From contig JAADGQ010000032.1 in the NCBI GenBank assembly GCA_013152295.1, forward strand, positions 1 through 41,297: a DNA stretch of 41,297 nucleotides, written 5' to 3'. The translations under genes and the position numbers were made by a program. Of the stretch, positions 12,237 through 37,424 are shown one piece after another. The notes under the pieces were generated by a model. It saw nothing but the letters and a program-made list of their open reading frames with translations. It did no database searches and was not told the DNA's origin. The stretch is from Gammaproteobacteria bacterium. GTDB taxonomy: Bacteria; Pseudomonadota; Gammaproteobacteria; JAADGQ01. The stretch's first letter is position 1, and every line of letters starts with the position of its first letter.

Positions 12237-13549
12237 GCACAACAGTAAAGCGTTTTCTCCTTGAACCCGGTGGCTGTCTGCGCGGGCGTATTCGCGTGCC
12301 CGGTGATAAATCCATTTCACACCGCTCCATCATGTTGGGCTCCATCGCTGAAGGATGCACTGAAGTGAGTGGCTTTTTAGAGGGCGAAGACGCGCTGGCT
12401 ACATTGCGCGCATTTCGTGACATGGGTGTGGTTATCGATGGCCCGGAGCGGGGCCGGGTGACGGTACACGGCGTTGGATTGCATGGGCTTAAAGCGCCGC
12501 TTGACGTGCTCAATCTGGGTAATTCGGGCACCTCCATGCGCTTGATGTCAGGGCTGCTGGCGGCACAATCTTTTGATGTCACGATGTGTGGTGATTCATC
12601 GTTGTCGAAGCGACCCATGCGCCGTGTCACCGAGCCACTGGCGCAGATGGGGGCGTTGATCGACACCAGCGCCGATGGTACGCCACCGCTGAAAATTCAC
12701 GGTGGTCGCGCTTTAGTCGGCATTGAATACACCATGCCTGTTGCCAGCGCGCAGCTGAAATCTGCGCTGCTATTGGCCGGACTATACGCTGCGGGAACCA
12801 CATCGATAACGGAGCCTGCACTGACGCGCGACCACACCGAGCGCATGTTGCGTGGTTTTGGCTATGCAGTAACAACCGATGGCTCCACGGCATCCCTCAA
12901 GGGTGGCGGTACGCTCAAGGGGTGCGCGATTGATGTGCCTGCTGACATTTCATCCGCTGCTTTTTTTCTGGTGGCAGCCTCGATTGCTGAGGGTTCCGAT
13001 TTGCTGCTGGAGCATGTGGGCGTGAATCCCAGCCGTACCGGCGTCATCGATATTTTGCGCATGATGGGCGCCGATATTGTGCTGCTCAACGAGCGCGATG
13101 TTGGTGGTGAGCCGGTGGCCGATATCCGCGTGCGTTCGGCACCGCTGAAGGGGGTCGAGATTCCTGGCGAAGCCGTGCCCAGGGCGATTGATGAATTTCC
13201 GGTGCTGTTTGTTGCCGCCGCTTGTGCAGAGGGGCAGACCGTGTTGACCGGCGCCGCAGAGCTGCGTGTGAAAGAGAGCGATCGCATTCAAGCGATGGCC
13301 GATGGCCTGATTGCGCTGGGTGTCGATGCACAGCCGACCGAAGACGGTATGGTGATTCGTGGCGGCGCGCTGGGTGGCGGCACGGTAGAGAGCCATGACG
13401 ACCACCGCATTGCGATGGCTTTCGCTGTCGCAGCGCTACGGGCTGACAGTGCGATTACGGTGCGCGATTGTGCCAACGTCAATACATCGTTCCCCGGTTT
13501 TGTTGCATTGGCCCGGGAGTGTGGCTTGAGAATTAGCGATGGCGGCTGA
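12233..13549 (+). CDS. aroA: 3-phosphoshikimate 1-carboxyvinyltransferase (EPSP synthase)
   Basis: 438 residues. Transfers enolpyruvate from PEP to shikimate 3-phosphate, the sixth shikimate step. Motifs are VPGDKSISHRSIM with the PEP-binding Lys, LGNSGTSMRLMSGLL, DEFPVLFVAAACAEG with a catalytic acid, and LRVKESDRIQAM. NSGTSMR with Ser and Thr rather than the E. coli-type NAGTAMR resembles class II enzymes (Agrobacterium and Pseudomonas type); this class call is tentative. The ATG overlaps the tyrA stop and the gene end overlaps cmk by 11 bases, so tyrA-aroA-cmk form a tight operon. Confidence 0.97.
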   Translation: MSTTVKRFLLEPGGCLRGRIRVPGDKSISHRSIMLGSIAEGCTEVSGFLEGEDALATLRAFRDMGVVIDGPERGRVTVHGVGLHGLKAPLDVLNLGNSGTSMRLMSGLLAAQSFDVTMCGDSSLSKRPMRRVTEPLAQMGALIDTSADGTPPLKIHGGRALVGIEYTMPVASAQLKSALLLAGLYAAGTTSITEPALTRDHTERMLRGFGYAVTTDGSTASLKGGGTLKGCAIDVPADISSAAFFLVAASIAEGSDLLLEHVGVNPSRTGVIDILRMMGADIVLLNERDVGGEPVADIRVRSAPLKGVEIPGEAVPRAIDEFPVLFVAAACAEGQTVLTGAAELRVKESDRIQAMADGLIALGVDAQPTEDGMVIRGGALGGGTVESHDDHRIAMAFAVAALRADSAITVRDCANVNTSFPGFVALARECGLRISDGG

Positions 13550-18192: not shown

Positions 18193-18336
18193 ATGCCAGA
18201 TGAGATTATGAGTACGATGCATGAGACGGGAATGCCAGGCAGTCATCACTGGCTCTTTTGGGTCGTGGTGGTGGCGGTGTTTGCACTGTTGTTCTTTTTG
18301 GTTTGGTGGTTTGGTATACGCGGTAAGCGCTCCTGA
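18193..18336 (+). CDS. 47-residue single-helix membrane peptide
   Basis: ATG at 18193 with a strong ggaggagg 6 bases upstream; TGA at 18334-18336. The translation starts MPDEIMSTMHETGMPGSHHW, continues as one long hydrophobic helix (LFWVVVVAVFALLFFLVWWF) and ends in basic GIRGKRS, so the C-terminus should be cytoplasmic. The Met/His-rich N-terminus (five Met and three His in 19 residues) suits copper or silver contact. It sits between the DUF2231 gene and merR. I recognise no named family, although short membrane proteins of this form are common in metal operons. Confidence 0.7.
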   Translation: MPDEIMSTMHETGMPGSHHWLFWVVVVAVFALLFFLVWWFGIRGKRS

Positions 18337-18344
18337 AAAAAGTG

Positions 18345-18376
18345 TTGACCTGTGTGCAGCACCTGGGACTTACACT
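18345..18376 (+). promoter_or_regulatory. MerR-type promoter with 20-bp spacer
   Basis: TTGACC (18345-18350) and TACACT (18371-18376) are 20 bases apart, the over-long spacing typical of promoters activated by MerR-family metal sensors. GTGCAGCAC, a small palindrome, lies within the spacer. It directly precedes the merR gene and probably drives merR and the ATPase gene. Confidence 0.6.
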
Positions 18377-18409
18377 CAGTATGACGTTACAACAAAACGA
18401 TGGGTGAAG

Positions 18410-18817
18410 ATGATGTTAACGGTCGGTGAGCTGTCAAAAACCACACAGGCAACGGCGGATGCGATACGTCACTATGTACGTATTGGACTGTTAACGCCGA
18501 CGCGTAACCCAGACAATGGTTATAAACTCTTCGATTGCGACGACATAAAAAGAGTGAAGTTTATTCGTCGAGCCAAGGGGCTTGGTTTCTCGTTGAGTGA
18601 TATCCAGACTATTTTCGACCACAGCAACAATGGGCGATCGCCCTGTCCGGTAGTGCGCAACATCATCAGTCAGCGTATTGATGAAAACAGGGCCAGGCTG
18701 GCTGAACTTAATGCGCTGCAACAACGCATGGACGACGCCCTGGATAGATGGAAGTCGATGCCCGATGGTGAGCCGGATGGTGAGGCGATATGTCATTTGA
18801 TCGAGTCGATAAATTGA
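18410..18817 (+). CDS. MerR-family heavy-metal regulator
   Basis: 135 residues. The N-terminal winged helix-turn-helix reads LTVGELSKTTQATADAIRHY, with the usual RIGLLTPTRNPDNGYKLF. RVKFIRRAKGLGFSLSDIQTIF is the second DNA-binding helix pair. The dimerisation helix begins SPCPVV and the protein ends EAICHLIESIN. The two Cys (one before the long helix, one near the C-terminus) are candidates for metal binding, similar to ZntR/CueR/CadR-like sensors. Which metal cannot be told. Start is ATG 18410 or 18413. It lies 20 bases before the P-type ATPase gene, which is its likely target. Confidence 0.88.
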   Translation: MMLTVGELSKTTQATADAIRHYVRIGLLTPTRNPDNGYKLFDCDDIKRVKFIRRAKGLGFSLSDIQTIFDHSNNGRSPCPVVRNIISQRIDENRARLAELNALQQRMDDALDRWKSMPDGEPDGEAICHLIESIN

Positions 18818-18837
18818 ATAATTAATGGAGACAAAGC

Positions 18838-21435
18838 ATGAAAACCGATCCGGTTTGCGGCATGAAAGTGGCGGAGGGCAAGGGGTATCACGCAGATCAT
18901 CATGGCGAGAGCTACCACTTTTGCAGCGAGAAGTGTCTGCATAAATTCGAGGCCAATCCTGCTCAATATGTGCAAAGCGAGTCGCTGAGCGATCCAGTGT
19001 GCGGCATGACGGTCAGCGCAGAGTCGCCACACCACACTGAACACGAAGGCGAGATGCACTACTTTTGCAGTGAGGGTTGTTTGAGTAAATTTATCGCATC
19101 GCCGAAACAGTATGTGACGAAAGAGCAGGATGAAGAAAAAGGTAGCTGCTGTGCTGGCAAACATCACGACCATCACGCGGTGAAAACATCAAACCAGACG
19201 GTAGATGAGTCGGCGATTTACACCTGCCCGATGCACCCTGAAGTCGAACAACAAGGTCCTGGCAGTTGTCCTAAGTGCGGTATGGCGCTTGAGCTGAAAG
19301 ATATCCCGCTATCCACGACAAAAACCGAATATACCTGTCCCATGCATCCTGAGATTGTGCAGGACCACCCCGGTAGTTGCCCTAAATGCGGCATGGCGCT
19401 GGAGGCTGTCACGGTAGAGGCGCAAGAAGATAGTAGCGAGCTTGATGACATGACGCGCCGTTTTTGGGTGAGCGCGATCTTGGCAATACCGGTGTTTTTC
19501 AGCGCCATGGCGGCGGAGTTTTGGCCCGCCGCGATCAATGGACTGATCGAACCAGTAACCCGGCAATGGGTTGAACTCGTGTTGTCCGCCCCCGTCGTAT
19601 GGTGGGGCGGTTGGGTATTCTTCCAACGTGGTTGGCAGTCGATCGTTACCCGTCATCTCAATATGTTCACGTTGATTGCGATTGGCGTTGGTATTGCCTG
19701 GATCTATAGCTTGATTGCGGTGCTGCTGCCGGGCATTTTTCCACCAGAAGTATTCAGTGAGGCAGGTGTGGTACCGGTCTATTTTGAAGCCGCTGCAGTG
19801 ATTACCGCACTGGTTTTATTGGGGCAGGTCATGGAGCTGCGTGCGCGCAGTCAGACCAATGCTGCGATCAAGCTGCTGCTGGGTTTGGCACCAAAAACAG
19901 CACGCATTGTTCGTGAAGATGGTACAGAGGAGGATATCCCTCTCGAGCATGTGCAACCCGGCGATCAGTTGCGTGTTCGTCCCGGTGAGAAGGTGCCAGT
20001 GGATGGTCAAGTAATTGATGGTGAGAGTAACGTTGATGAGTCGATGGTGACGGGCGAACCTATTCCTGTTGCCAAGGTGGCCGGTGAGAAGCTGATCGGT
20101 GCGACCGTGAATGGCACCGGTGGTCTGCTGATGCGCGCCGAAAAAGTGGGTGCGGATACCTTGTTGTCACAGATCGTGAAAATGGTGGCTGAAGCACAGC
20201 GCTCGCGTGCACCCATACAAAAGTTAGTGGATGTCGTTGCAGGCTACTTCGTTCCGACGGTCATGATTATTGCTGCCATCACTTTTTTAATCTGGACTTT
20301 TTTCGGGCCGGAACCCGCCATCGCCTACGCCATTATCAATGCAGTTGCTGTATTAATCATCGCCTGCCCCTGTGCACTCGGTTTGGCGACGCCGATGTCG
20401 ATCATGGTAGGTACAGGAAAGGGCGCGATGATGGGGGTGTTGATTAAAAATGCCGAAGCGTTGGAGATCATGCAGAAGGTGGATACTCTGGTTGTGGATA
20501 AAACCGGCACGTTGACCGAAGGCAAACCCAAGCTGGTCTCTGTCTTTGCCAATGCGGGTTTTGAGGAAAACGACAACCTGCGTCTGGCGGCCAGCCTGGA
20601 GCGGGCCAGTGAACATCCCCTTGCCGAAGCAATCGTGCAGGGTGCCGAAGCGCGTGGCGTCGAGTTGGCGCAGGCGGATAACTTTCAGTCGGTGACGGGT
20701 AAAGGTGTAACCGGTGTGGTGGATGGCCGTGAAGTGGCACTGGGTAATCTTAAATTATTGCAGAGTCTAGACATTGATGCAGGTGACCTGCCGAAACAGG
20801 CGGACACTCAGCGCGCAGAGGGTCAGACCGTGATGTTGCTGGCGGTGGATGGCAAAGCGGCGGGGCTGATTGGCGTTGCCGATCCGATCAAAGAGAGCAC
20901 GCCTGAAGCGATTCGCGATCTGCATAGCGAAGGTATTCGTGTGGTGATGCTCACGGGCGACAGTCGTAAGACCGCCGAAGCGGTGGCCGCCAAACTCGAT
21001 ATTGATCAGGTTCAGGCCGAGGTTCTGCCTGAAGAGAAAGCTGAAGTTGTCAAACAGCTTCAGGCCGATGGCCATATCGTTGCGATGGCCGGTGATGGAA
21101 TTAATGATGCTCCAGCTTTGGCACAGGCGCATGTCGGTGTGGCGATGGGTACCGGCACCGATGTTGCGATGGAGAGTGCTGGAGTGACGCTGGTCAAGGG
21201 TGATTTGCGTGGCATTGTACGAGCGCGCCGTCTGAGCCGTGCCACCATGCGCAATATTCGCCAAAACCTCTTTTTCGCTTTTATCTACAACGCAGCGGGC
21301 GTACCGATCGCGGCGGGTGTGCTCTATCCATTTTTTGGATTGCTACTCTCCCCGATGATCGCTGCAGCAGCGATGAGCTTCAGTTCGGTGTCGGTGATTA
21401 CCAATGCCCTCAGGCTAAGAGGTGTGAAACTGTAG
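18838..21435 (+). CDS. copA: Copper-type P1B ATPase with doubled YHS and metal-binding domains
   Basis: 865 residues. Exports Cu+ (or Ag+) from the cytosol using ATP. The N-terminus carries two YHS domains (DPVCGM at 4 and 52, each with a later FCS-x2-C), then two heavy-metal-binding modules (YTCPMHPE...[10 protein letters not shown] at 129-152 and 165-189). These replace the usual HMA domain. The membrane core has the CPC motif at 510-512 ([12 protein letters not shown]), phosphorylation Asp554 in [27 protein letters not shown] and [10 protein letters not shown]. The ending [13 protein letters not shown] is normal for CopA. Ggagacaaagc precedes the ATG. The CPC motif supports copper or silver over zinc (also CPC but different C-terminal residues). 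Confidence 0.93.
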
Positions 21436-21466
21436 GGTGCGCATAGCGCACCCTACGAGAATTTTT
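21432..21466 (+). terminator. Long hairpin after copA
   Basis: GTAGGGTGCGC (21432-21442) and GCGCACCCTAC (21446-21456) form a perfect 11-bp stem with an ATA loop, starting within the copA stop codon. Five T follow after a short spacer (21462-21466). This could be a terminator or attenuator; the same stem type also occurs as a dispersed palindrome in other gammaproteobacteria. Confidence 0.6.
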
Positions 21467-21490
21467 CTAAATAAAGGAGAGTGTTGAATC

Positions 21491-22168
21491 GTGCATGGTG
21501 AAGTCGAATATGCCTACGGCATGTGGGTGGTGGCAGCGTTTAATGTTGGCATCTTCCTCTTTTTTATCCTCAGTTTTCTCAAGCCGCGTGGTGGTCAGGA
21601 GTGGCGCAGTATGGGGGTGGTCGCTGCCTTTTTAGTGGCACTTTTTGCCGAGATGTATGGTTTTCCACTGACCATCTACTTGCTCACAGGTTGGTTGGGT
21701 GATGCCTATCCGGTGTTGCAGCCTTACGGGCACAAGTTTGGTCATCTGTGGGTGGTGGTGTTCGGTGGCTCAACCCTGGCGTGGGTGATGGTGATGGGCT
21801 TGAGTCTGGTGTTTATGATCATGGGATACATGTTGCTGTCAGATGGTTGGACGCAGATTCACGCCGCTCGCGGCAAACTGGTTACCGATGGCATCTACGC
21901 CTACGCTCGTCATCCACAATACACTGGGTTGTTTCTCGTCATTATCGGGTTTTTGGTGCAGTGGCCGACACTGCTCACCGTGCTGATGGCGCCCATTATG
22001 CTCTACGCCTATGTACATCTGGCTAAGATTGAAGAGCGCCGCGCCGAGGCTGAGTTTGGTGAGGCATACACGGAGTACGCACGTAAAACGCCAGCTTTTT
22101 TCCCACCACTCAATCAGTGGAAGGCATTTCTAACGGTTGATGTGGAAGATGAAGAAGAGAAGCGGTGA
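21491..22168 (+). CDS. Isoprenylcysteine carboxyl methyltransferase-like membrane protein
   Basis: 225 residues with about five transmembrane helices. The C-terminal half has the ICMT/PEMT methyltransferase signature: LVTDGIYAYARHPQYTG, then IEERRAEAEFGEAYTEY and TPAFFPP. Bacterial members are poorly characterised; some sit in metal-resistance operons, as here. The substrate is unknown and it probably uses SAM. Start is GTG at 21491 with aaggaga upstream. The ending is strongly acidic (DVEDEEEKR). Confidence 0.82.
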   Translation: MHGEVEYAYGMWVVAAFNVGIFLFFILSFLKPRGGQEWRSMGVVAAFLVALFAEMYGFPLTIYLLTGWLGDAYPVLQPYGHKFGHLWVVVFGGSTLAWVMVMGLSLVFMIMGYMLLSDGWTQIHAARGKLVTDGIYAYARHPQYTGLFLVIIGFLVQWPTLLTVLMAPIMLYAYVHLAKIEERRAEAEFGEAYTEYARKTPAFFPPLNQWKAFLTVDVEDEEEKR

Positions 22169-22201
22169 CGGGTGTTTGATTGCTGTTTCAGGAGGTGATG
22201 T

Positions 22202-22522
22202 ATGGAGGGCTTAATCTCATTTTTACTCTTTGCCGCGCTGTTTTATTTCATGATGCGCTATGGCTGCGGCGCGCACATGATGCATGGTCATGGTGGTCAC
22301 GGGAAACATAGTGTTGATGAAGCGCGCGGTACCGTGAAGGGTAAATCGGTTGACCCGGTGTGTGGCATGGAGGTTGAGCCTGACGAAGGCTACGCCAAAA
22401 TGCACAATGGTCAGGAGTACCGTTTTTGTAGTTCTGGTTGTTTGAGTAACTTTGATCGTGATCCTGAGCGTTATCTGAAAAACGAGTGGAAAAAAGAGGA
22501 CGATGAAGGAGGGCTTCAATGA
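22202..22522 (+). CDS. Membrane-anchored YHS-domain protein
   Basis: 106 residues. One N-terminal transmembrane helix (LISFLLFAALFYFMM), then a His-rich HMMHGHGGHGKH stretch, then a YHS domain (DPVCGMEVEPDEGYAKM ... YRFCSSGCLSNFDRDPERY) close to those at the start of the ATPase. It is probably a copper-binding or copper-delivery protein for the same system. Strong ribosome site aggaggtg before ATG 22202. It overlaps the next gene by ATGA. Confidence 0.85.
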   Translation: MEGLISFLLFAALFYFMMRYGCGAHMMHGHGGHGKHSVDEARGTVKGKSVDPVCGMEVEPDEGYAKMHNGQEYRFCSSGCLSNFDRDPERYLKNEWKKEDDEGGLQ

Positions 22523-22791
22523 AACAGGGTATTTCATTTTGGGGGGTCGGGCACGCCACAAGCTTTTTGTTGGCGATCAGTTTTGCGCTCTGCGTTATTT
22601 TTGACCTGTTTTTCCCTGATCATGCCATGTATGAGACTTGGCAAAAGCTGTTGCCAGGGTTCGAGTGGTTGAGTTGGAAAAGCTTTTTTCTGGGTTTGGT
22701 CGAGGCCTATGGCTACGGCTGGTATTTCGCTTTGATTTGGGTGCCGATCTACAACTTCGTGGTGCTTCGTAATCAGAAGGGAGCACGTTAG
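22519..22791 (+). CDS. Small membrane protein, DUF5676-like
   Basis: 90 residues with two transmembrane helices (SFLLAISFALCVIFDLFF and ALIWVPIYNFVVL) and a conserved-looking centre LLPGFEWLSWKSFFLGLVEAYGYG split around the second helix. I associate this with the DUF5676 membrane family, often found in metal-efflux operons, but from memory only. Its ATG overlaps the YHS gene stop and its stop overlaps the GTG of gdhA. Confidence 0.65.
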   Translation: MKQGISFWGVGHATSFLLAISFALCVIFDLFFPDHAMYETWQKLLPGFEWLSWKSFFLGLVEAYGYGWYFALIWVPIYNFVVLRNQKGAR

Positions 22792-24041
22792 TGGATAAAA
22801 AATGCATCTGCCAAGAGACTCAGCGCCATTTTCTCAATCGGGCGTTTGAGCGCCTAAAACTAAAGGGCTCACAGCGTGAGCTGTTGTTGTCATCGTTTCG
22901 TGAGACACGGATTACGGTGCCGGTGACGTTACGTCACAATGGTGAAAACAGACTGCATACCTTTCAAGGTTATCGTGTACAGCATAACCATGCGCGTGGG
23001 CCTTTTAAGGGTGGGTTGCGTTTTCATCCTGACGTTAACATGGGCGAGATTCGCGCGTTGGCGCAGTTGATGACCTGGAAGACGGCGCTGGTCGATATCC
23101 CTTTTGGTGGTGCCAAAGGTGGCGTTGCCGTTGACCCACGACAGCTGAACGAGACCGAACTCGAAGAGCTCTCCAAGCGCTTTTGTCAAAAAATGGCACC
23201 GATCATCGGTGTGTACGACGACATCCCTGCGCCCGACATCGGTACCAATCCGCAGGTGATGGCGTGGATGTTGGATGAGTACAGCAAAACTCACGGTTTT
23301 AGAACAGCCATTGTTACCGGCAAACCGGTAGAGCTGGGTGGCAGCGCCGGGCGGCTGGAGGCGACGGGGCACGGTGTTGCTCATCTTGCTCACAAGGCTG
23401 CGGCGGAGATGTCGCTTGTTCCCGAGCAGAGCCGGGTGGTGATTCAGGGCTTTGGCAATGTCGGTTCTCATACAGCGATCGCTCTGGCGAACAAGGGCTA
23501 CAAAATCATCGCGCTCTCTGATGTCAACGGCGGTGTCATCAATGAAGCTGGTTTCTCAATTGATCATGTTCTGGCACATGTCAACGAAAATGGTGGTTTG
23601 ACGGATCTACCCGGCAGTTCGCCCATCAGTAATGCCGACCTGCTTGAACTCCCATGTGACATTCTGGTTCCCGCTGCGCTGGAGGCCACGATCACCTGTG
23701 ACAACGCTGAAGCGATTCGGGCCAGGCTGATTGTGGAGGCTGCCAATATGCCGGTCACTCACCGTGCGGATGCACGATTGCAGCAGCGCGGCATCGTCAT
23801 CGTGCCTGATCTTCTGGCCAATGTGGGTGGTGTGTTGGCCTCCTATTACGAGTGGGTACAAAATCTTCAGCAATTTCCATGGGATCGGGAACTGGTGTTG
23901 AGTCGTCTGGAAAAACGGCTCTCCCATGCCTACGAGGCCGTGCGCGATCTAGCGCGGGAGCGGCAGGTCGATCTACGCGCTGCGGCATATGAACTGGCCA
24001 TTGGGCGAGTTGAAGAGGCGATTCGACTGCGTGGCTTTTAA
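22791..24041 (+). CDS. gdhA: Glutamate dehydrogenase
   Basis: 416 residues, the hexameric Glu/Leu/Phe/Val dehydrogenase family. Interconverts glutamate with 2-oxoglutarate and ammonia. Motifs are GPFKGGLRFHPDVNMGEI and the catalytic-site Lys in DIPFGGAKGGV. PAPDIGTNPQVMAWMLDEY and the nucleotide-binding VVIQGFGNVGSHTA follow. The length and sequence fit the NAD(P)-flexible type rather than the 447-residue E. coli enzyme. The GTG start overlaps the previous stop (TAGTG), so it is coupled to the metal operon. Its product 2-oxoglutarate links to the 2-oxoacid oxidoreductase and PII-like protein downstream; this link is inference. Confidence 0.94.
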   Translation: MDKKCICQETQRHFLNRAFERLKLKGSQRELLLSSFRETRITVPVTLRHNGENRLHTFQGYRVQHNHARGPFKGGLRFHPDVNMGEIRALAQLMTWKTALVDIPFGGAKGGVAVDPRQLNETELEELSKRFCQKMAPIIGVYDDIPAPDIGTNPQVMAWMLDEYSKTHGFRTAIVTGKPVELGGSAGRLEATGHGVAHLAHKAAAEMSLVPEQSRVVIQGFGNVGSHTAIALANKGYKIIALSDVNGGVINEAGFSIDHVLAHVNENGGLTDLPGSSPISNADLLELPCDILVPAALEATITCDNAEAIRARLIVEAANMPVTHRADARLQQRGIVIVPDLLANVGGVLASYYEWVQNLQQFPWDRELVLSRLEKRLSHAYEAVRDLARERQVDLRAAAYELAIGRVEEAIRLRGF

Positions 24042-24061: not shown

Positions 24062-24820
24062 ATGCCAAAAGTAAATTATGGCCACAAAGCGTGGTTTGAG
24101 GATCAATACAGGGGTTCGGCGCAAGACCCCTGGGGGCTTGACTGGCGACCTTCGCAGGAGATGCGCTATGAGAGAAAGGTGCGGCTCCTGTCAAAAATGA
24201 CAGAGGGTCGGAGCAACTTATCTGTTTTGGATATTGGCTGCGCCACCGGAATTTTTACGCACAAGCTTGAAGTTGCATTGGGTGAGCGGTGTCGGCGCAT
24301 TATCGGTTGTGATTTCTCTGAGCAGGCGATTGAACGTGCGCGCGCTCGCTACCCTGAAATCGAATTTGAAATCTCTTCATTGGAGGAGTGCAGCGAAAGG
24401 TATGCAGGGAGCATTGATGTTGTGAGCTTTCTTGAGGTGTTTTACTACATTGATGATGAAAAACGGCGTGAAGCGTTGCGTAGCTTAAAAAATTTGCTGA
24501 CGGATGATGGCATTGTGCTGATCTCATCCATGGTGGCGAAGCCGCCCTATCTGACCGCCGCTGAGCTGCGTGCACGGGTTGCCGAGGAGTTCGATATTCT
24601 TGAAGTGGGTGAGATGCATCTCAAGGTGCTCTCCACGCTTGAAAAAACTGCCTTGAAAGCCAGTAAATTGATGGGAGTAAAAGATTCCCGTGCGCTCAAA
24701 TGGCTATCCAGATCAATCTCGCCACCAAGGGCCGGGAAGATAGAGCAGATATCCCGCCGCCTGTTTGGTACAGCATCCGTTTCAAATGCATTTGTTGTCG
24801 CTAAAAAACCGTCAGGTTGA
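24062..24820 (+). CDS. SAM-dependent methyltransferase, NodS-like
   Basis: 252 residues. Class I methyltransferase with motif I LSVLDIGCATGIF (about 53-65), motif II IIGCDFSEQAIERA, and VSFLEVFYYIDD at motif IV. The N-terminus DPWGLDWRPSQEMRYERK resembles NodS or SAM transferases acting on small molecules. The C-terminal basic segment is not assigned. It starts 20 bases after gdhA with only a weak aaag ribosome site. The substrate is unknown; proximity to the RquA-like gene makes a quinone or lipid substrate possible, but nothing in the sequence proves that. Confidence 0.75.
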   Translation: MPKVNYGHKAWFEDQYRGSAQDPWGLDWRPSQEMRYERKVRLLSKMTEGRSNLSVLDIGCATGIFTHKLEVALGERCRRIIGCDFSEQAIERARARYPEIEFEISSLEECSERYAGSIDVVSFLEVFYYIDDEKRREALRSLKNLLTDDGIVLISSMVAKPPYLTAAELRARVAEEFDILEVGEMHLKVLSTLEKTALKASKLMGVKDSRALKWLSRSISPPRAGKIEQISRRLFGTASVSNAFVVAKKPSG

Positions 24821-25097: not shown

Positions 25098-25880
25098 ATG
25101 CCAGCGAAGCCGTACAAAAACAGTGGGTCGCGCCTTGGTATTTGGCACCATTTTCTCGATGGTCAACCGGAGTATCTGGCGCGTCATTACTGGTGGGCCT
25201 ACCTGTGGCGCTGGGGCGTCTGGTTTTTTGATCATCAGCCTATTATCAACGCCATCCTCTTTGGTCAGTACCAAACGCTCTCACATCGGGCACTGCATGA
25301 CTGCATCAACAAGAGGCCTGCAGGACGGCTATTGCAGTTGACCTGTGTCTACGGGAGTCTGACCCCATCCCTTCTTAAAGAGATAGACGATGAGCTCTAT
25401 CTTATGGATGTGGCTGAAATACAGCTCTCTTCAACACGCAAAAAACTGGTTGAGGCGGAGAAAGCACGCCTGCTTTGTGCGCGCATGAATGCGGAGTACC
25501 TCGCCTACGGTGATAATCTGTTTGCCACCATTTTGATCTTTTTTCTGTTGCACGAACTGCCGCCCGAAGCGCGTGAGCGCACGCTTCACGAAGTTGTGCG
25601 AGTGCTGCGACCCGGCGGACGCCTGGTGATCACTGAGTATGGCCCCTGTCCCAAGCGTCACTTGTTGTGGCAGTTGTGGCCTGCGCGTGTTCTGCTAGAG
25701 TGGTTGGAGCCGTTTTTAAACAGTTTTTGGCAGCAGGATCTTGCGGCGACACTGGCTGAATATGCGCGAAGTCGTGGCAAAGTGCTACGCCAGGTGGATG
25801 AGTTTCGCTGTTTTGCCAGTTTTTACCGGGTTTGCGTTTTTGAATTAGACGAATCATCTGTTGCAGATATTGCAGAATGA
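25098..25880 (+). CDS. rquA: RquA-like rhodoquinone biosynthesis protein
   Basis: 260 residues. RquA converts ubiquinone to rhodoquinone, the low-potential quinone used by fumarate reductase under low oxygen, using SAM as amino donor. Family marks seen are PEYLARHYWWAYLWRWGVWFFD (28-45 in part), a degenerate SAM motif LTCVYGSLTP (81-90) in place of the Gly-rich D-x-G-x-G-x-G, LYLMDVAEIQL (100-110), and IFFLLHELP (147-155). VLRPGGRLVITEYG follows. Residue 131 is Asn where related methyltransferase folds usually have an acidic residue. It starts a tight gene run with the heme-c protein 19 bases downstream. The alternative is an unrelated methyltransferase of the UbiE superfamily; the motif match makes RquA more likely. 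Confidence 0.72.
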   Translation: MPAKPYKNSGSRLGIWHHFLDGQPEYLARHYWWAYLWRWGVWFFDHQPIINAILFGQYQTLSHRALHDCINKRPAGRLLQLTCVYGSLTPSLLKEIDDELYLMDVAEIQLSSTRKKLVEAEKARLLCARMNAEYLAYGDNLFATILIFFLLHELPPEARERTLHEVVRVLRPGGRLVITEYGPCPKRHLLWQLWPARVLLEWLEPFLNSFWQQDLAATLAEYARSRGKVLRQVDEFRCFASFYRVCVFELDESSVADIAE

Positions 25881-25899: not shown

Positions 25900-26679
25900 A
25901 TGAGCAAAATAGAGCAAGCAGAAACCTGTCCGGCCATCCGTCCACGCCGTTTCTACGACTGCAGTCTTAACGAAAAATTTCTCTACACCTCATTTTTAAT
26001 GTTGGCGGGCTTGGCCTATATTATGGCTCTGGCCTATCTCTACACCAGTTTCGATGGTATCGATGGCAAGCCGGGCCTGTCGGTGGAGGATATTGCCGAG
26101 AACTACTACGGTAATCGCAGCGGTACGCGGCTGGAGTCGGCTATTCGTGGCCCCATGGCGAGCAATATTGATAAAGAACAACGCAATCATGTGGTCGAGT
26201 GGCTGAAATCAGGTGCGCCTGAAGCGGGTTATGAACGTGTTATCAAACCTATATTTAGCAAGCGTTGCGTGATGTGCCATAACCCGGCCTCTGGGTTGCC
26301 GATTCCTGATCTCTCCAGCTATGAGGGGGTCAAGCAAGTTGCCAATGTGGATACCGGCGTTTCGCTGCACAGCCTGATGAAGGTGTCGCACATCCATCTG
26401 TTTGGTATCGGTCTGGTTGCGTTTGGTATTGGCCTCGTGTTTCGTTTTGCCCTGTTGCCCTCCTGGTTTCAACAGACACTGACCCTACTGCCATTTATCG
26501 CTATTTTTGCCGATATCGCGGCCTGGTTTTTGACTAAGTGGGATCCGGTTTATGCCTACACGGTGATCATTGCGGGTGGTCTGTTGGGGTTGTCATGGGC
26601 GCTGCAGATTCTTATCTCCCTCTATCAAATCTGGTTTTTACGTTGCCGCGTGGAGATTGAGCATGACGAACAAAAATAA
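25900..26679 (+). CDS. Membrane protein with one c-type heme site
   Basis: 259 residues. Transmembrane helix 1 spans about 29-49. It is followed by a periplasm-facing segment of about 110 residues containing a single heme c attachment site CVMCH (123-127) within IFSKRCVMCHNPASGLP. Three more helices follow at about 167-186, 193-212 and 219-246. HSLMKVSHIHLFG (157-169) offers three His at the membrane edge, possible ligands for another heme. I know no characterised member. ATG 25900 has ggag 10 bases upstream. The gene end overlaps the oxidoreductase gamma gene by 17 bases, suggesting a stoichiometric link: an electron carrier between the quinone pool and periplasm is plausible, but unproven. 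Confidence 0.7.
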   Translation: MSKIEQAETCPAIRPRRFYDCSLNEKFLYTSFLMLAGLAYIMALAYLYTSFDGIDGKPGLSVEDIAENYYGNRSGTRLESAIRGPMASNIDKEQRNHVVEWLKSGAPEAGYERVIKPIFSKRCVMCHNPASGLPIPDLSSYEGVKQVANVDTGVSLHSLMKVSHIHLFGIGLVAFGIGLVFRFALLPSWFQQTLTLLPFIAIFADIAAWFLTKWDPVYAYTVIIAGGLLGLSWALQILISLYQIWFLRCRVEIEHDEQK

Positions 26680-27256
26680 CGCGGCCGCCCCGCCCCGTTC
26701 CTACGAAATTCGTTTTCACGGCCGAGGTGGTCAGGGCACGGTGTCGGCCGCGGCACTTATGGCACTGGCGGCGTTTGAAGACGGTTTTGAGTCTCAGGCT
26801 TTTCCCAAGTTTGGTTCCGAGCGGCGCGGCGCGCCGGTGGAAGCCTACGTGCGCATCAGTCAGTTGCTTATTCGCTCCCATAATCAGGTCTATATGCCTG
26901 ATGCCGTGGTGATTCAGGATGCGGGTCTGTTGCGTTCTGAGCCACTGTTGCGAGGGTTAAAAGCTGACGGGCTTGTTGTTTTGAACGCGGCAGAGAAGCC
27001 AGCGGATATGAGTGATAATTTTCGCTGGATCTGTCTGCCTGCCAGTCAGATTGGTGAGCGCCATTTAGGTCGCCCTTTATCGAACACCGTGTTGTTGGGT
27101 GCACTGGCGGCGGGTACAGGCTGGGTCACCCTTGCCGCACTGGAGCGTGCGATAACAGATCACTTGGCCAGCAAAGGCGAAGCGGTGGTGGTGGCTAATA
27201 TCGAAGCTGTGCGTGAGGGGTATGGGTTCATCGCGCCAAAAGAGGACGTGGCATGA
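26663..27256 (+). CDS. porC: 2-oxoacid:acceptor oxidoreductase, gamma subunit
   Basis: 197 residues. The gamma domain of pyruvate/2-oxoglutarate:ferredoxin oxidoreductases, which helps bind coenzyme A. It begins IRFHGRGGQGTVSAAALMA, the family signature, then FPKFGSERRGAPVEAYVRIS and LSNTVLLGALAAGTGW. It overlaps the cytochrome gene upstream and the alpha subunit gene downstream (ATGA). A separate gamma polypeptide marks the four-subunit architecture. The substrate (pyruvate, 2-oxoglutarate or branched-chain 2-oxoacid) cannot be settled by eye; the symbol is by architecture only. Confidence 0.88.
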   Translation: MTNKNNAAAPPRSYEIRFHGRGGQGTVSAAALMALAAFEDGFESQAFPKFGSERRGAPVEAYVRISQLLIRSHNQVYMPDAVVIQDAGLLRSEPLLRGLKADGLVVLNAAEKPADMSDNFRWICLPASQIGERHLGRPLSNTVLLGALAAGTGWVTLAALERAITDHLASKGEAVVVANIEAVREGYGFIAPKEDVA

Positions 27257-28434
27257 AGAGGCTGCTGGAAGGCTCACAAGCGGTGGCCGAAGCGGTGCGC
27301 TTGTGTCGCCCGCAGGTGGTTGCGGCTTACCCCATCACACCACAGACCCATATTATTGAACGCCTGGCGCAACATGTGGCCGATGGCGAGTTGAAGGCGG
27401 AGTTCATTAACGCCGAGAGCGAGTTCGGTGCTGCTTCAATTGTGTTGGGCGCCGTTGTCGGTGGCGCGCGCGCTTTCACCGCCACGGCCTCGCAAGGTTT
27501 GCTACTGATGACCGAGGTGCTCTACAACATCGCCGGATTGCGTCTGCCGCTGGTGATGGTCTGCGCCAACCGTGCTGTGGGCGCGCCGATTAACATCTTC
27601 AGCGATCACCAAGACAGCATGTCGGTGCGTGATGCGGGTTGGATACAGCTCTATGTCGAGAGTAATCAGGAAGCTGCAGATACGTTGATTCAGGCCTACC
27701 GCATTGCCGAGGCGTGTGAGCTGCCCGTTATGGTCTGCATGGATGGCTTTTTATTGACCCACACCTTCGAGCCAGTGGACCTACCCGCGCAAGTGGCGGT
27801 GGATAACTTTCTGCCCCCTTTTCATTTCTCCCGCACCCTCGATCCAGCCCGGCCAATGACGTTGGGTGGTGCCAGCGAAGTGGATAATTATCAGGAGTAC
27901 CGCGTCGCCCAACACGAGGCGCTGGAAAATGCCTCAGCGCTGATCGAAGCGTTTGATGCTGAATTTGGTGAGCAGTTCGCGCGTACCTGTGGTGGTCTGG
28001 TACAGGGTTATTGTCTTGACGGTGCGCAGACGGTGCTGCTGGGTATGGGCTCGCTGATGGGGGCGGTGCGCGATGTGGTGGACAAGTTGCGCGCGCGAGG
28101 GGAGGCTGTGGGCGCGCTACGTCTGCGCTGTTTTCGTCCCTTTCCCGCATCTGCTTTGGTACGGCTGCTGAGTGGTGTACAGCGGATTATCGTGCTGGAA
28201 AAAGCGATCAGCATCGGTGCAGGCGGTATCGTCGCCGCTGAACTGCGCGCGGCACTGCAGCAGGCGGGTACGCCTGTGGAGGGTGTGGTCGGCGGGCTGG
28301 GTGGTCGCGATCTGACTCCAGATGTGATCGAGAAGATTTTTCAGGAGGTGACCCCGGATGAGGGGGGTAATACGTTGCGGTTCGCCTCTACTCATGTTTC
28401 TCCCGATTCAAAAAAGGAGGTTGACAATGGATAG
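27253..28434 (+). CDS. porA: 2-oxoacid:acceptor oxidoreductase, alpha subunit
   Basis: 393 residues. The pyrimidine-binding domain I of the thiamine diphosphate enzyme, with domains II and III. Signatures are VVAAYPITPQTHIIE, FINAESEFGAASIVLGA with the catalytic Glu, FTATASQGLLLMTEVLYN and NRAVGAPINIFSDHQD. The C-terminal domain has MGSLMGAVRDVVD and LRLRCFRPFP. It reductively carboxylates an acyl-CoA or oxidatively decarboxylates a 2-oxoacid, together with the beta subunit. ATG overlaps the gamma stop. The direction of the reaction depends on the electron partner, which here is unusual (see the 29415 gene). Confidence 0.9.
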   Translation: MKRLLEGSQAVAEAVRLCRPQVVAAYPITPQTHIIERLAQHVADGELKAEFINAESEFGAASIVLGAVVGGARAFTATASQGLLLMTEVLYNIAGLRLPLVMVCANRAVGAPINIFSDHQDSMSVRDAGWIQLYVESNQEAADTLIQAYRIAEACELPVMVCMDGFLLTHTFEPVDLPAQVAVDNFLPPFHFSRTLDPARPMTLGGASEVDNYQEYRVAQHEALENASALIEAFDAEFGEQFARTCGGLVQGYCLDGAQTVLLGMGSLMGAVRDVVDKLRARGEAVGALRLRCFRPFPASALVRLLSGVQRIIVLEKAISIGAGGIVAAELRAALQQAGTPVEGVVGGLGGRDLTPDVIEKIFQEVTPDEGGNTLRFASTHVSPDSKKEVDNG

Positions 28435-29425
28435 ACGTGACCCCTTTCGCCATAACGTGCTCACCTCAGGCCATCGCGCTTGCTCCGGCTGTGGCGAGGC
28501 GATGGCGGCGCGCATGGTTAGTGACCTGATCGGTCCCGATGCCATCTACATCAATGCCACCGGTTGTTTGCAGGTGTTCACCACGCATAATCAACAGAGT
28601 GCCTGGCAGGCGCCGTGGATCCACTCGGTGTTTGCCAATGCAGCGGCAGTGGCCTCGGGTGTCGAAGCGGCATTGCGCGCCCAACGCAAAAAGACGCCGG
28701 TTGTGGTGCAAGCCGGTGATGGCGGCACTTTCGATATCGGTTTGCAGTGCCTCTCTGGCATGATCGAGCGCGGCCACGATGTGCTGTTTGTCTGCTACGA
28801 CAATGAAGCCTATATGAATACCGGCGTGCAGCGCTCCAGCTCTACGCCGCATGCGGTGCACACGACTACTTCACCACCGGGGCGGGTCAGTCAAGGCAAA
28901 CGCCACCTGAAAAAGGATCTGATTTCGATTATCGCCGCCCACAATATGCCCTACGCGGCTACGGCGACGATCGCCTATTTTCCTGATCTGAAGGCCAAGG
29001 TGGAGAAAGCGATGGGGATTACAGGGCCACGTTTTCTTCATCTGCTGTCACCTTGTCCACTGGGTTGGGCGCATGACAGTGCGCTCTCCGTTTCGGTCTC
29101 CCGGCTGGCGGTTGAAACCGGCCTGTTTCCATTGGTGGAGCTGGAGCATGGTGAACTCACCGGGGTGATGCGTCTGGCAGAGCAGAAACCGGTGGAGGCC
29201 TATCTGCGTCCGCAGGGGCGCTTCAAACATCTGTTTGACAGTAAAGAGGGCGGTGTGGAGCTGCGCCACCTGCAAGCGCTGGCTGATGCCCGCATCCGTC
29301 GTTATGGCCTGCTTGAAACCGACACGCAGTGGGATACGCACAGCGCGATGCAGAGCGCACGACACGGTCGCGGTGGTTACGCATCCCCTATGTCTACTGT
29401 GGAGGCGCTGAACAGTGACGCCTAA
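28427..29425 (+). CDS. porB: 2-oxoacid:acceptor oxidoreductase, beta subunit
   Basis: 332 residues. Thiamine diphosphate pyrophosphate-binding subunit with one [4Fe-4S] cluster. GHRACSGCGEA gives Cys19 and Cys22, NATGC gives Cys47, and SPCPLGW gives the fourth Cys near residue 210. The Mg/ThDP motif is GDGGTFDIGLQ (97 onward) ending at YDNEAYMNTG. Strong aaaaggagg lies 6 bases before ATG 28427. It overlaps the alpha gene by 8 bases and the flavoprotein gene by 11 bases. The C-terminal extension beyond about 290 is longer than in many PorB and has no motif I recognise. Confidence 0.9.
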   Translation: MDRRDPFRHNVLTSGHRACSGCGEAMAARMVSDLIGPDAIYINATGCLQVFTTHNQQSAWQAPWIHSVFANAAAVASGVEAALRAQRKKTPVVVQAGDGGTFDIGLQCLSGMIERGHDVLFVCYDNEAYMNTGVQRSSSTPHAVHTTTSPPGRVSQGKRHLKKDLISIIAAHNMPYAATATIAYFPDLKAKVEKAMGITGPRFLHLLSPCPLGWAHDSALSVSVSRLAVETGLFPLVELEHGELTGVMRLAEQKPVEAYLRPQGRFKHLFDSKEGGVELRHLQALADARIRRYGLLETDTQWDTHSAMQSARHGRGGYASPMSTVEALNSDA

Positions 29426-31061
29426 ACTCGAGATCGAACCTGGCAGCAGCAACGCCTATCATACGGGCGCTTGGCGCACTCAGCAGCCTGTCTATTACGA
29501 TAAATGGCCGCCATGCAGCCAGACCTGTCCTGCGTCGGAAGATATCCAGAGCTGGTTGGCGCATGCCACCGAACAGCAGTGGCAGGCGGCGTGGCGCAAG
29601 TTGACCGAGCGCAACCCGTTTCCGGCAACGATGGGGCGCATCTGTTACCACCCCTGCGAATCGGCCTGTAATCGCAAACACCTCGACAGCGCGGTCAATA
29701 TTCACGCCATGGAGCGTTATCTTGGCGACATGGCCCTTGTCCAGGGGTGGCGCCATCAAGTGTTGCATGAGACGCCGCAAGTGCAGCGGGTCGCCATTAT
29801 CGGCGCAGGCCCAGCGGGCCTCTCGTGCGCGTTTCAGCTGGCTCGGCGTGGTTATCCCGTGACGATCTTCGACGCGCAAGCGACACCCGGTGGCACGCTG
29901 CGCAGTGGCATTCCCAGCTACCGTTTACCCAAGTCGGTGCTGGCCAGTGAAATCGACGCCATTCTCGCGCTGGGTATTGAGCTGCGTCTCAATAGCCGTG
30001 TTGGTGTGGAGGTCAGTGAAAGTGATTTGCTCGATGCGTTCGACGCCACTTTTCTTGCCATTGGCACCCAGCGACCGCGCCTCTATTCCGAAAGCAGTGG
30101 GCAGGATAACGGCACGACCCCGAGCCATAGCGTGATGAGCGGCATCGATTTTCTGTACCGCTTGAATCGTGGTGAAGCAATGCAATTGCCAAAGCAGGTT
30201 GCTGTGGTGGGCGGCGGCAACACTGCGATCGATGTAGCGCGCTGTGCCAGGCGTCTGGGCGCAGCGGTGACGCTGCTCTGCCCGCAAGATCCGCACGGCA
30301 GCCATCACCATGATTTAGGTACAGAGATGCCAGCATCGCAACAGGAGGTTGTCGAGGCCGAAACCGAAGGCGTCAACCTGCGCTATCGGGTTGGGGTGCG
30401 TCGTTTGGTACGCAGTGGTGAGCATCTTTCAGGCGTAGAGATCGCGCATGTGGACCGGGTGCATGATCGTCACGGCCATTTTAACCCGGTGCTGTTTGCA
30501 GGCACCGAAGAGTTTATCCCTGCTGGTCTGGCTATTTTTGCGATTGGTCAAGAGGCCGACTGGCAGGGGCTGGGTTATCTGAGTCAGGTTGGCGAGGCTG
30601 AAGGTGTGTGGATTGGTGGTGACGCAGCGAGCCAGGCGAAGTTGGCAGTGACGGCTGTCGGCAGTGGTTACAAGGCTGCCATGTCGATGATGGCCACTTT
30701 TAAAAACGAAGCGCTGCTATTTGATGCGCGTAAAAAAACAAAAATCACCTACAAAAAAATGCAGCTTCACTATTACCCCAAACAGTCGCGTCATGAAGGT
30801 AAGGTGAGCGAAGCGCGGCTTAGTGGTTTCACTGAAGTGGTTAAAGGTCTGGTTGACGATAACGCGAAGCACGAAGCAAAACGCTGCTTGAGCTGTGGCG
30901 TCTGTTTTGAGTGTGATAACTGTTGGCACTTCTGCCCTGATGCAGCGGTGATCAAAAAAGAGGGTGGTTACACGATTGACTACGACTACTGCAAAGGGTG
31001 CGGCATCTGCGCTCAGGAGTGTCCGTGCGGGCATATCGAAATGGAGCCTGTGACGGACTGA
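29415..31061 (+). CDS. GltD-like NAD(P)H flavoprotein fused to a ferredoxin domain
   Basis: 548 residues. N-terminal iron-sulfur Cys: PPCSQTC (34, 38) and RICYHPCESAC (77, 81, 85). FAD site VAIIGAGPAGLSCAF (about 126-140), NAD(P) site VAVVGGGNTAIDVARCA (about 262-278), and GGDAA near 395 follow. The C-terminal part has two cluster motifs, CLSCGVCFECDNCWHFC (about 493-509) and CKGCGICAQECPCGH (about 523-537), like the delta (PorD) subunit. It thus joins a glutamate-synthase-small-subunit flavoprotein to the ferredoxin subunit of the oxidoreductase and should pass electrons between NAD(P)H and the beta subunit. DsrL of sulfur oxidisers is built alike, but is longer and lies with dsr genes, absent here. 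Start GTG overlaps porB. Confidence 0.88.
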   Translation: MTPKLEIEPGSSNAYHTGAWRTQQPVYYDKWPPCSQTCPASEDIQSWLAHATEQQWQAAWRKLTERNPFPATMGRICYHPCESACNRKHLDSAVNIHAMERYLGDMALVQGWRHQVLHETPQVQRVAIIGAGPAGLSCAFQLARRGYPVTIFDAQATPGGTLRSGIPSYRLPKSVLASEIDAILALGIELRLNSRVGVEVSESDLLDAFDATFLAIGTQRPRLYSESSGQDNGTTPSHSVMSGIDFLYRLNRGEAMQLPKQVAVVGGGNTAIDVARCARRLGAAVTLLCPQDPHGSHHHDLGTEMPASQQEVVEAETEGVNLRYRVGVRRLVRSGEHLSGVEIAHVDRVHDRHGHFNPVLFAGTEEFIPAGLAIFAIGQEADWQGLGYLSQVGEAEGVWIGGDAASQAKLAVTAVGSGYKAAMSMMATFKNEALLFDARKKTKITYKKMQLHYYPKQSRHEGKVSEARLSGFTEVVKGLVDDNAKHEAKRCLSCGVCFECDNCWHFCPDAAVIKKEGGYTIDYDYCKGCGICAQECPCGHIEMEPVTD

Positions 31062-31076
31062 ATTGGAGCCAATGCA

Positions 31077-32219
31077 ATGGAAAATAAAATTCAATTCAAG
31101 GCACCCATCGAGGTCGCGGGTGCCGGGCCCGCTGGATTGGCGGCGGCGATTACTCTGGCTCACGCAGGGCGCCGGGTCATCGTGCACGAAACTCAAAAAG
31201 AGGTGGGGCACCGTTTTGGTGGTGATTTCCAGGGAATAGAGAACTGGACCACCACGGAAGATGCACTCAGTGTGCTCAAGAAATCAGGCATTACAACAGA
31301 CTTTACTGCCATGCCGAGTCGTAACGGCACCGTTTTCGATGGTGCTGGAAAACCCTATGCAATCAATAGCGACGAGCCACTCTTCTATCTTGTGGAGCGC
31401 GGTCCTGGTCCCGATACCTTCGACAGCGCTCTGCTCAGGCAGGCACAAGCACTTGGTGTGGAGGTGCGTTTCAACAGTCGTCTGCGCCATATGGCTGGGG
31501 AGGGCATTCTCGCCGCAGGTCCGCGCGCTGCTGATGCCATCGCCGTGGGTTACCACTTCGAAACTGACATGGCCGATGGTTACTGGGCTATTTGTGATAA
31601 CGAACTAGCACCGCAGGGGTATGCCTATCTTTTAGTCATGAACGGTAGAGGCACCGTAAAGAGCTGTATGTTTTCCGGCTTCAAACAGGAAAAGCGCTAT
31701 TTACAAAGAACCATTGCGGCTTTTGAACGATTGGTGGGTTTGGAGATGCGCAATCCTCAACCCCATGGCGGCAGTGGTAACTTTCGTATACCGGATAGCG
31801 CCTACAGCGGTCCCCATCCATTGGTGGGCGAGCAGGCCGGTTTTCAGGATACATTGTGGGGGTTTGGTATGCGTCTGGCGGTCTCGTCCGGTGTGCTGGC
31901 TGCGCAGAGTCTGTTGAGTGGTGAAAACTATGACACGCTTTGGCAGCGTGAACTGAAACCACAGATGAAGACCTCTGTCGTTAACCGGGCACTGTTTAGT
32001 GTGGCGGGGAGCTACGGCTATAGCTGGTTTTTAAAACAGCTGGTCTCGACTCCAAACCTGCGCGAATCCCTGCGTCAGCACTATCAACCGTCGTGGCCCA
32101 AGCGCTTACTGGGCCCGTGGGCCCGGCGTCGCTATGAGAGCCAGCGCAAAGATCTCACCTGTGACCATATCGATTGCCACTGTATCTGGTGTCGTGGGGA
32201 GTGTTGTGCGCATGATTAA
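31077..32219 (+). CDS. Geranylgeranyl-reductase-like flavoprotein with Cys-rich tail
   Basis: 380 residues. FAD-dependent oxidoreductase of the geranylgeranyl reductase or RebC-like group: VAGAGPAGLAAAITLAHAG (13-31), GDFQGIENW and a late PLVGEQAGFQDTLWGFGMR that matches the GDAAG-type flavin motif. The C-terminus is unusual: six Cys (362, 367, 369, 372, 376, 377) plus His in the last 19 residues, likely a metal or iron-sulfur site. It lies 15 bases after the flavoprotein gene with ttggag upstream, so it belongs to the same transcript. Reduction of isoprenoid double bonds (quinone or lipid tail) is possible, as is another role with the oxidoreductase. Confidence 0.72.
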   Translation: MENKIQFKAPIEVAGAGPAGLAAAITLAHAGRRVIVHETQKEVGHRFGGDFQGIENWTTTEDALSVLKKSGITTDFTAMPSRNGTVFDGAGKPYAINSDEPLFYLVERGPGPDTFDSALLRQAQALGVEVRFNSRLRHMAGEGILAAGPRAADAIAVGYHFETDMADGYWAICDNELAPQGYAYLLVMNGRGTVKSCMFSGFKQEKRYLQRTIAAFERLVGLEMRNPQPHGGSGNFRIPDSAYSGPHPLVGEQAGFQDTLWGFGMRLAVSSGVLAAQSLLSGENYDTLWQRELKPQMKTSVVNRALFSVAGSYGYSWFLKQLVSTPNLRESLRQHYQPSWPKRLLGPWARRRYESQRKDLTCDHIDCHCIWCRGECCAHD

Positions 32220-36509: not shown

Positions 36510-37424
36510 ATGAAAAAAATTACTATTGTTGGGCCGGGTCGTGTGGGTGAATCTGCAGCCCAAATTATTGCCAAATCTGAACTGTGTCATGAGCTGGTTT
36601 TGCTGGGGCTGGAGGATGAAGAGACTCGGGGTATTGCACTTGACGTGCAGGAATCTGCGCCACTGTTTGATTTTGATACACACGTCACCGGCAGTGCTGA
36701 TCCTGCAGCTATGAGCGGTTCCGATTTAGTTATTTTTACTGCGGGATTGCCTCGCAAGCCTGGCATGTCAAGAGATGAGCTGGCCAGCGCAAACTTGTCT
36801 GTGTTGCGCACAGTGATCGATAGCATTTTACGGTATGCGCCAAACGCAATATTGCTGCTCGTAACCAATCCGGTGGATATTTTGACTTATTACGCATGGA
36901 AATGGACGGGTTGGCCAAGAGAGCGGATTTTAGGGCTTTCAGGGGTTTTAGACAGTGCGCGTATGGCCAGTTTTATTGCTCAAGAGACCGGGTTCTCGGT
37001 TCATGACATTAATACGCTGGTTATTGGCGGGCACGGTGATGCAATGGTCCCCCTGATACGCTATGCCTGTATCAACGGTATTCCTATTGATCAATTCCTT
37101 GATGAAAATACGATTGCTAAATTAGTTGAACATACTCGCAAGGGTGGTGCTGAAATTTTAGCGCTGAAAAAAACCAGCAGTGCTTATGATTCACCTGCTG
37201 CGAGTATTGCAATTATGGTCGATTCTATTGCTCGAAATCGACAACGAATTTTGCCTTGTGTGGCGATTCTTGAAGGTGAATACGGTGAAAATGATATTGC
37301 CATGGGAGTGCCCGTCGTATTGGCAAAAAACGGAGTCTCTCGTGTGATTGAATTGCCGCTGAGGCAAGAGGAGTTGCAAGCTTTGGCAGTTTCAGCAGAA
37401 GCCGTGCGCAAGAATATTAAATAA
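36510..37424 (+). CDS. mdh: Malate dehydrogenase, LDH-like (Chlorobium type)
   Basis: 304 residues. Interconverts malate and oxaloacetate. Nucleotide loop GPGRVG (8-13), malate-type Arg82 and Arg88 in GLPRKPGMSRDE, LVTNPVDILTYYAW, GVLDSARMASF and catalytic His175 in IGGHGDAMVPL. It follows the short LDH-like MDH of Chlorobium and other reductive TCA organisms rather than the E. coli type. At the end of the second beta strand, where NAD-dependent members have Asp (ELVLLD), this protein has Gly33 (ELVLLG) followed by LEDEE. That may change coenzyme preference. No ribosome site stronger than agggttg is visible before the ATG. Confidence 0.93.
   Translation: MKKITIVGPGRVGESAAQIIAKSELCHELVLLGLEDEETRGIALDVQESAPLFDFDTHVTGSADPAAMSGSDLVIFTAGLPRKPGMSRDELASANLSVLRTVIDSILRYAPNAILLLVTNPVDILTYYAWKWTGWPRERILGLSGVLDSARMASFIAQETGFSVHDINTLVIGGHGDAMVPLIRYACINGIPIDQFLDENTIAKLVEHTRKGGAEILALKKTSSAYDSPAASIAIMVDSIARNRQRILPCVAILEGEYGENDIAMGVPVVLAKNGVSRVIELPLRQEELQALAVSAEAVRKNIK

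Follow-up and report, generated by a model that had tools for sequence, protein, structure and literature searches.

An RquA-like protein from a gammaproteobacterium falls in a sister group of RquA carried by iron-oxidising and deep-sea-vent bacteria

Does the RquA-like gene in the window (the whole stretch of 41,297 nucleotides analysed here, contig JAADGQ010000032.1 of a Gammaproteobacteria bacterium) encode a rhodoquinone-making enzyme, as its preliminary description proposed? The gene starts with ATG and its boundaries were as first given (Table 1). The motifs quoted at the time, LTCVYGSLTP (residues 81-90), YWWAYLWRWGVWFF (31-44) and FFLLHELP (148-155), and the numbering of Asn131 were also correct.

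Relationship of the window protein to RquA

The window protein matched the RquA profile NF038261 over residues 24-248 (E=2.6e-51), which bore out the proposed family relationship, and its score of 174.4 bits narrowly missed the equivalog cut-off of 175 bits. All other curated families scored far below this profile (UbiE NF001240, 42.4 bits against a cut-off of 378). An AlphaFold2 model based on 47 sequences (pLDDT 91.3, pTM 0.88) had the strand order of a class I methyltransferase, and the best fold match in the PDB was 4obw, SAM-bound yeast Coq5, a ubiquinone C-methyltransferase. With UbiE/Coq5 the protein shares this fold, the Asp that ends strand 2 and an Asn at the adenine-contact position, but it is set apart from UbiE/MenG by the lack of a Gly-rich motif I, by an equivalog score below the cut-off and by the RquA-specific H152 and E153. 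A plasmid search for a named RquA returned other methyltransferases only.

Scores against NF038261 divided the RquA homologues into two groups, a core at 225-318 bits and a sister group at 143-186 bits, which includes the window protein and straddles the cut-off. Among 369 genomes of the class, the core comprised ten genomes at 280-318 bits and one intermediate at 225 bits; a second cluster, including the window, lay at 143-183 bits, and the next match was found only at 72 bits. The same split was seen in a sample of the phylum (279-317 versus 155-186 bits). In a rooted tree the core RquA clade had a support of 98/100 and 41 sister proteins one of 98/94, with a long stem separating the sister group from core RquA. 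Forcing the window protein into the core clade was rejected (p-AU 0.0083, for a group that was defined after the tree had been inspected), while a single clade of all 43 sister proteins was not rejected (p-AU 0.32). The tree was built without the RquA of Rhodospirillum rubrum and without the Desulfobacterota RquA that gave no rhodoquinone in E. coli; R. rubrum RquA is taken to belong to the core because the NCBIfam model scores core proteins at ~300 bits. Placement within the RquA clade, on which the preliminary description had staked its assignment, was thus not recovered in this tree, where the window protein lay outside the core.

Three lineages deserve separate mention. A deep-branching sister-type lineage (L024 and L025, from G111 and G326; also G228) has Asp at position 131; the G111/G326 lineage branches close to the root, and the side of the tree to which it belongs is unsure. 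The intermediate RquA (L013, from G007; 225 bits) is related to both groups and joins the core clade by a long branch; unlike the window protein, it retains a DFH His and D143, and its host has the UbiU/UbiV pair. Core-type RquA is also carried by G373, a genome of 4.7 Mb in one contig. The RquA of Magnetococcus marinus is functional in E. coli (PMC11707229).

Table 1. Features of the rquA-like gene and of the genes downstream of it (positions in the window)
Feature	Position	Strand	Remarks
rquA-like gene, 260 aa	25098..25880	+	RquA sister group; heads co-directional run
Degenerate SAM motif I LTCVYGSLTP, residues 81-90	25338..25367	+	Q80, Y85 and G86 invariant in 144 proteins
Asp104, equivalent of R. 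rubrum Asp118 (ribose-binding acid)	25407..25409	+	Invariant, 144/144
Asn131, at the position of R. rubrum Asp143	25488..25490	+	Asn in 96/104 sister proteins
FFLLHELP, residues 148-155	25539..25562	+	H152, E153 and P155 invariant in both groups
Gly182, at the invariant His of core RquA (DYH)	25641..25643	+	Residue comparison
Membrane protein c7, CxxCH haem motif	25900..26679	+	20 bp after rquA; ~80% conserved
PorC, pyruvate:ferredoxin oxidoreductase gamma subunit	26663..27256	+	Family match
PorA, alpha subunit	27253..28434	+	Family match
PorB, beta subunit	28427..29425	+	Family match
GltD-like NAD(P)-binding flavoprotein with C-terminal PorD-like ferredoxin domain	29415..31061	+	Family match
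Geranylgeranyl-reductase-like FAD protein	31077..32219	+	Ends tight co-directional run
Malate dehydrogenase	36510..37424	+	TIGR01763, 371 bits (cut-off 352)

Conserved and divergent residues

The residue comparison covered 40 proteins of the core, 104 of the sister group and 13 from an outgroup. Those common to core and sister proteins and absent from the outgroup include Y26, A34, Y35, Q80, Y85, Q109, H152, E153, E204 and Y243, although some outgroup proteins have either H152 or E153 alone, and UbiE does not have them as a pair. P155 is a further RquA-specific residue, different in enzymes of the UbiE type, that the protein retains. The window protein therefore has in common with RquA of the R. 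rubrum type the degenerate motif I with its Q and CVYG, the D118 equivalent, the WAY, FFLLHExP, EP and Y243 motifs and a ubiquinone-making host; it differs in its separate clade, with ~30% identity to core members, in the missing DYH His and in having Asn for D143. In R. rubrum RquA, Asp118 contacts the SAM ribose (PMC9814641). The equivalence of D104 with D118 was established by alignment to core members, the R. rubrum sequence itself not being included.

The position following a conserved DY or EY is His in all 40 core proteins and in 1 of the 104 sister proteins, nearly all others having Gly or Ala there. This missing His is the clearest active-site difference of the sister group from the core. 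RquA requires Mn2+ (PMC9814641), and the His may be a metal ligand. Further changes of the sister group relative to the core are A82 to Thr, N57 to Gln and Q244 to Arg.

The preliminary description had noted that Asn131 stands where an acidic residue is common and had asked for the activity of the enzyme to be confirmed for that reason. The residue is indeed non-acidic, a conservative replacement, but as a sign of inactivity it largely loses its force, given its prevalence in the sister group (Table 1) and the Asn at the D143-equivalent position of yeast Coq5. The Coq5 residue at this position contacts N6 of SAM (PMC9814641), and Asn131 is therefore consistent with the binding of SAM. The only published inactive RquA variant is the double mutant D118A/D143A (PMC9814641).

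Genomic setting, carriers and quinone genes

The rquA-like gene is followed, after a 20-bp gap, by c7 and porC-porA-porB with overlapping starts as far as the GltD-PorD fusion. For c7 neither Pfam nor NCBIfam gave a match, and its structure model (pLDDT 54) was too poor for use. The order rquA-c7-POR was repeated in several vent relatives, often together with malate dehydrogenase, which in several relatives is directly linked to the rquA-POR run, and often with a putative citrate synthase. A second subclade (L064) has rquA after POR instead. Five of the nine genomes with a POR alpha subunit at least 70% identical carried sister rquA (nominal Fisher p=1e-4). The c7 gene is usually found with POR, and c7-POR occurs without rquA in G312. 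In G203, a member of the window's family, a deletion of ~0.9 kb has taken away the greater part of rquA along with the beginning of c7 (L057, G203:C11; contig base ~12669-12880), so that the first 68 rquA codons are fused out of frame to c7 while the POR operon is intact. Since G312 and G203 have POR without an intact rquA, the link between the two is real but not obligatory. In Gallionellaceae, the rquA-like gene lies among housekeeping genes (argS, SPOR, dsbA and an SDR), a setting that is uninformative on function.

Directly upstream of rquA lies a NodS/UbiG-like methyltransferase gene (24062-24820), preceded at 18221-24041 by genes for a MerR regulator, a copper-type P-ATPase, an ICMT-like methyltransferase, a DUF5676 protein and glutamate dehydrogenase; much of this island is kept beside rquA in relatives. 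Control by FNR was considered and rejected: the best upstream site had 2 mismatches, none was common to the relatives, and the window is rich in such matches. A scan for promoters and terminators gave nothing useful.

A public genome scan returned 556 stretches related to the window protein, and the best 80 of these all belonged to the sister group: 30 from Gammaproteobacteria (for the most part MAGs, from deep-sea vents and elsewhere), 22 from Gallionellaceae, 15 from Mariprofundia (Zetaproteobacteria), six from alphaproteobacteria and a few others. The carriers among these 80 include M. micogutta ET2, Mariprofundus sp. KV and 'Ca. Ferrigenium straubiae'. Members of the sister group are thus found among iron oxidisers and bacteria of deep-sea vents, in Gallionellaceae, Mariprofundaceae and vent Gammaproteobacteria. 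In Mariprofundaceae, sister rquA was present in 28 of 74 genomes; six copies matched named Mariprofundus contigs at 95-100% identity. Because the distribution is patchy (19 of the 36 good genomes of the family), a requirement of the gene for iron oxidation was rejected. Mariprofundus S139_64 has two sister-type copies (L122 and L123), the second on a contig that starts with a multihaem cytochrome. A copy from an Emcibacter MAG (L143) is nested among the Mariprofundus copies, which represents either a transfer or bin contamination.

The ubiquinone-making host implied by the preliminary description was supported, as UbiA of the window genome scored 335 bits, above its cut-off, and UbiE was found. 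Of 38 genomes tested from the two groups, 37 had UbiA above the cut-off. MenD exceeded its cut-off in 0 of 53, in a search that covered the MenD route to menaquinone as distinct from the futalosine pathway. The UbiU/UbiV pair of the O2-independent pathway was present in 34 of 40 core carriers, in agreement with its published co-occurrence with RquA (73/84; PMC11707229), but only 3 of 34 carriers in the sister group had it (Fisher 3e-11 with genomes as the units, 0.02 with families); the hosts of the sister group thus mostly lack the pair. The sole U32 protein of the window genome is TrhP. Its sole complex II is a forward-type SdhCDAB, the second flavoprotein being NadB. The suggestion that the organism could run fumarate reductase found no support in its original form: no dedicated fumarate reductase was found in this genome, which is 92% complete, so that gene absences are provisional. 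The companion suggestion of a reversed complex I is speculative.

Function of the sister group and its consequences

Judged from its sequence, the gene product is a SAM-dependent RquA-superfamily enzyme with a UbiE/Coq5 fold from a clade distinct from the core, a close cousin of the rhodoquinone-making enzyme rather than a proven member. Of the original equation of the gene with RquA and hence with rhodoquinone, the family assignment stands, while the position outside the core clade and the absent DYH His speak against the rest. The most likely function is a SAM-dependent modification of what we infer to be ubiquinone; that the product is rhodoquinone has about an even chance. The RquA-only residues common to both groups speak for conservation of the unusual SAM chemistry; the lack of the His and the divergent genomic setting call for caution on rhodoquinone.

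The best overall explanation, on which our judgement is evenly balanced, is that of a ubiquinone-modifying relative of RquA that serves rhodoquinone synthesis and low-potential quinone use. The sister enzyme would act on ubiquinone and convert part of the pool to rhodoquinone, as RquA does, providing a low-potential quinone for a microaerophile without menaquinone. Since the window's lineage encodes it in one operon with pyruvate:ferredoxin oxidoreductase and a c-haem membrane protein, the low-potential quinol probably accepts electrons when O2 becomes limiting for the metabolism of pyruvate and malate, and the only succinate dehydrogenase would then work in reverse. As SDH is the only such enzyme in the window genome, fumarate reduction would need to use it. 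Iron oxidisers could instead use a quinone standing between ubiquinone and NADH to split, and so ease, the uphill work of reverse electron flow to NAD+. In vitro, RquA depends on an oxidant, a role that oxygen filled (PMC9814641), and oxygen as the oxidant would suit microaerophiles. These physiological uses of the product are conjectural. In favour of the explanation are the Coq5 fold match, the retained RquA residues and D104, the occurrence of UbiA without MenD and the POR operon. Against it are the position outside the core, the absent His, the replacement of D143 by Asn, the score below the cut-off, the rarity of UbiU/UbiV, the absence of a dedicated fumarate reductase, the c7-POR locus without rquA in G312 and the loss of most of rquA in G203. 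A published Desulfobacterota rquA, which may belong to either clade, gave no rhodoquinone in E. coli (PMC13386864) and was also counted against it.

Several of these points would fit a SAM-dependent quinone-modifying enzyme with another product or substrate, such as an amino-, demethyl- or methyl-quinone or a ubiquinone precursor. The active-site changes are consistent and group-specific (His to Gly/Ala, D143 to Asn, A82, N57 and Q244), the stem to the core is long, UbiU/UbiV are rare and the genomic setting differs. Yet every shared RquA-specific residue is kept, including H152 and E153, and no alternative product is known; we regard this reading as the less likely one. That the protein is a standard rhodoquinone synthase, merely diverged, for fumarate respiration as in R. 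rubrum is unlikely: its score comes within a bit of the cut-off, which about half of the Mariprofundaceae carriers exceed, but core-clade placement was rejected, a dedicated fumarate reductase was not found and the tie to O2-independent ubiquinone synthesis is lacking. An ordinary methyltransferase for an unrelated small molecule, with a likeness to RquA that is historical only, could have the same general fold, but motif I follows the RquA pattern and not that of usual methyltransferases, and the carriers make ubiquinone, which renders this very improbable. Hardly any weight is given to a decaying, non-functional gene in the window genome; in G203, from the same family, a deletion has removed most of the gene, but here the ORF is intact, all group-invariant residues are present and the operon position is conserved.

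The more interesting result is the sister clade as a previously unrecognised second branch of the RquA family. RquA serves as the marker of rhodoquinone, and a 2026 survey used it to extend rhodoquinone to 24 orders (PMC13386864); the marker family here consists of two clades with differing active-site residues and genomic settings. As the NCBI cut-off cuts through the second clade, database labels there are almost random. Our literature search found no published quinone data for 'Ca. Ferrigenium straubiae' or Mariprofundus, and none of the best 40 matches listed was relevant to a link of rhodoquinone or of the second clade with iron oxidisers. It is possible, if doubtful, that the whole sister group makes a quinone other than rhodoquinone or carries out another SAM reaction on ubiquinone; the published inference from RquA to rhodoquinone would then be partly wrong across Proteobacteria, and iron oxidisers would hold an undescribed quinone or a new quinone reaction would exist. 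Should rhodoquinone be the product of the second clade, a low-potential quinone would become available to microaerophilic iron oxidisers and their reverse electron flow would have to be redrawn. With strain-level carriers such as M. micogutta ET2 and Mariprofundus sp. KV, the quinone product is directly testable.
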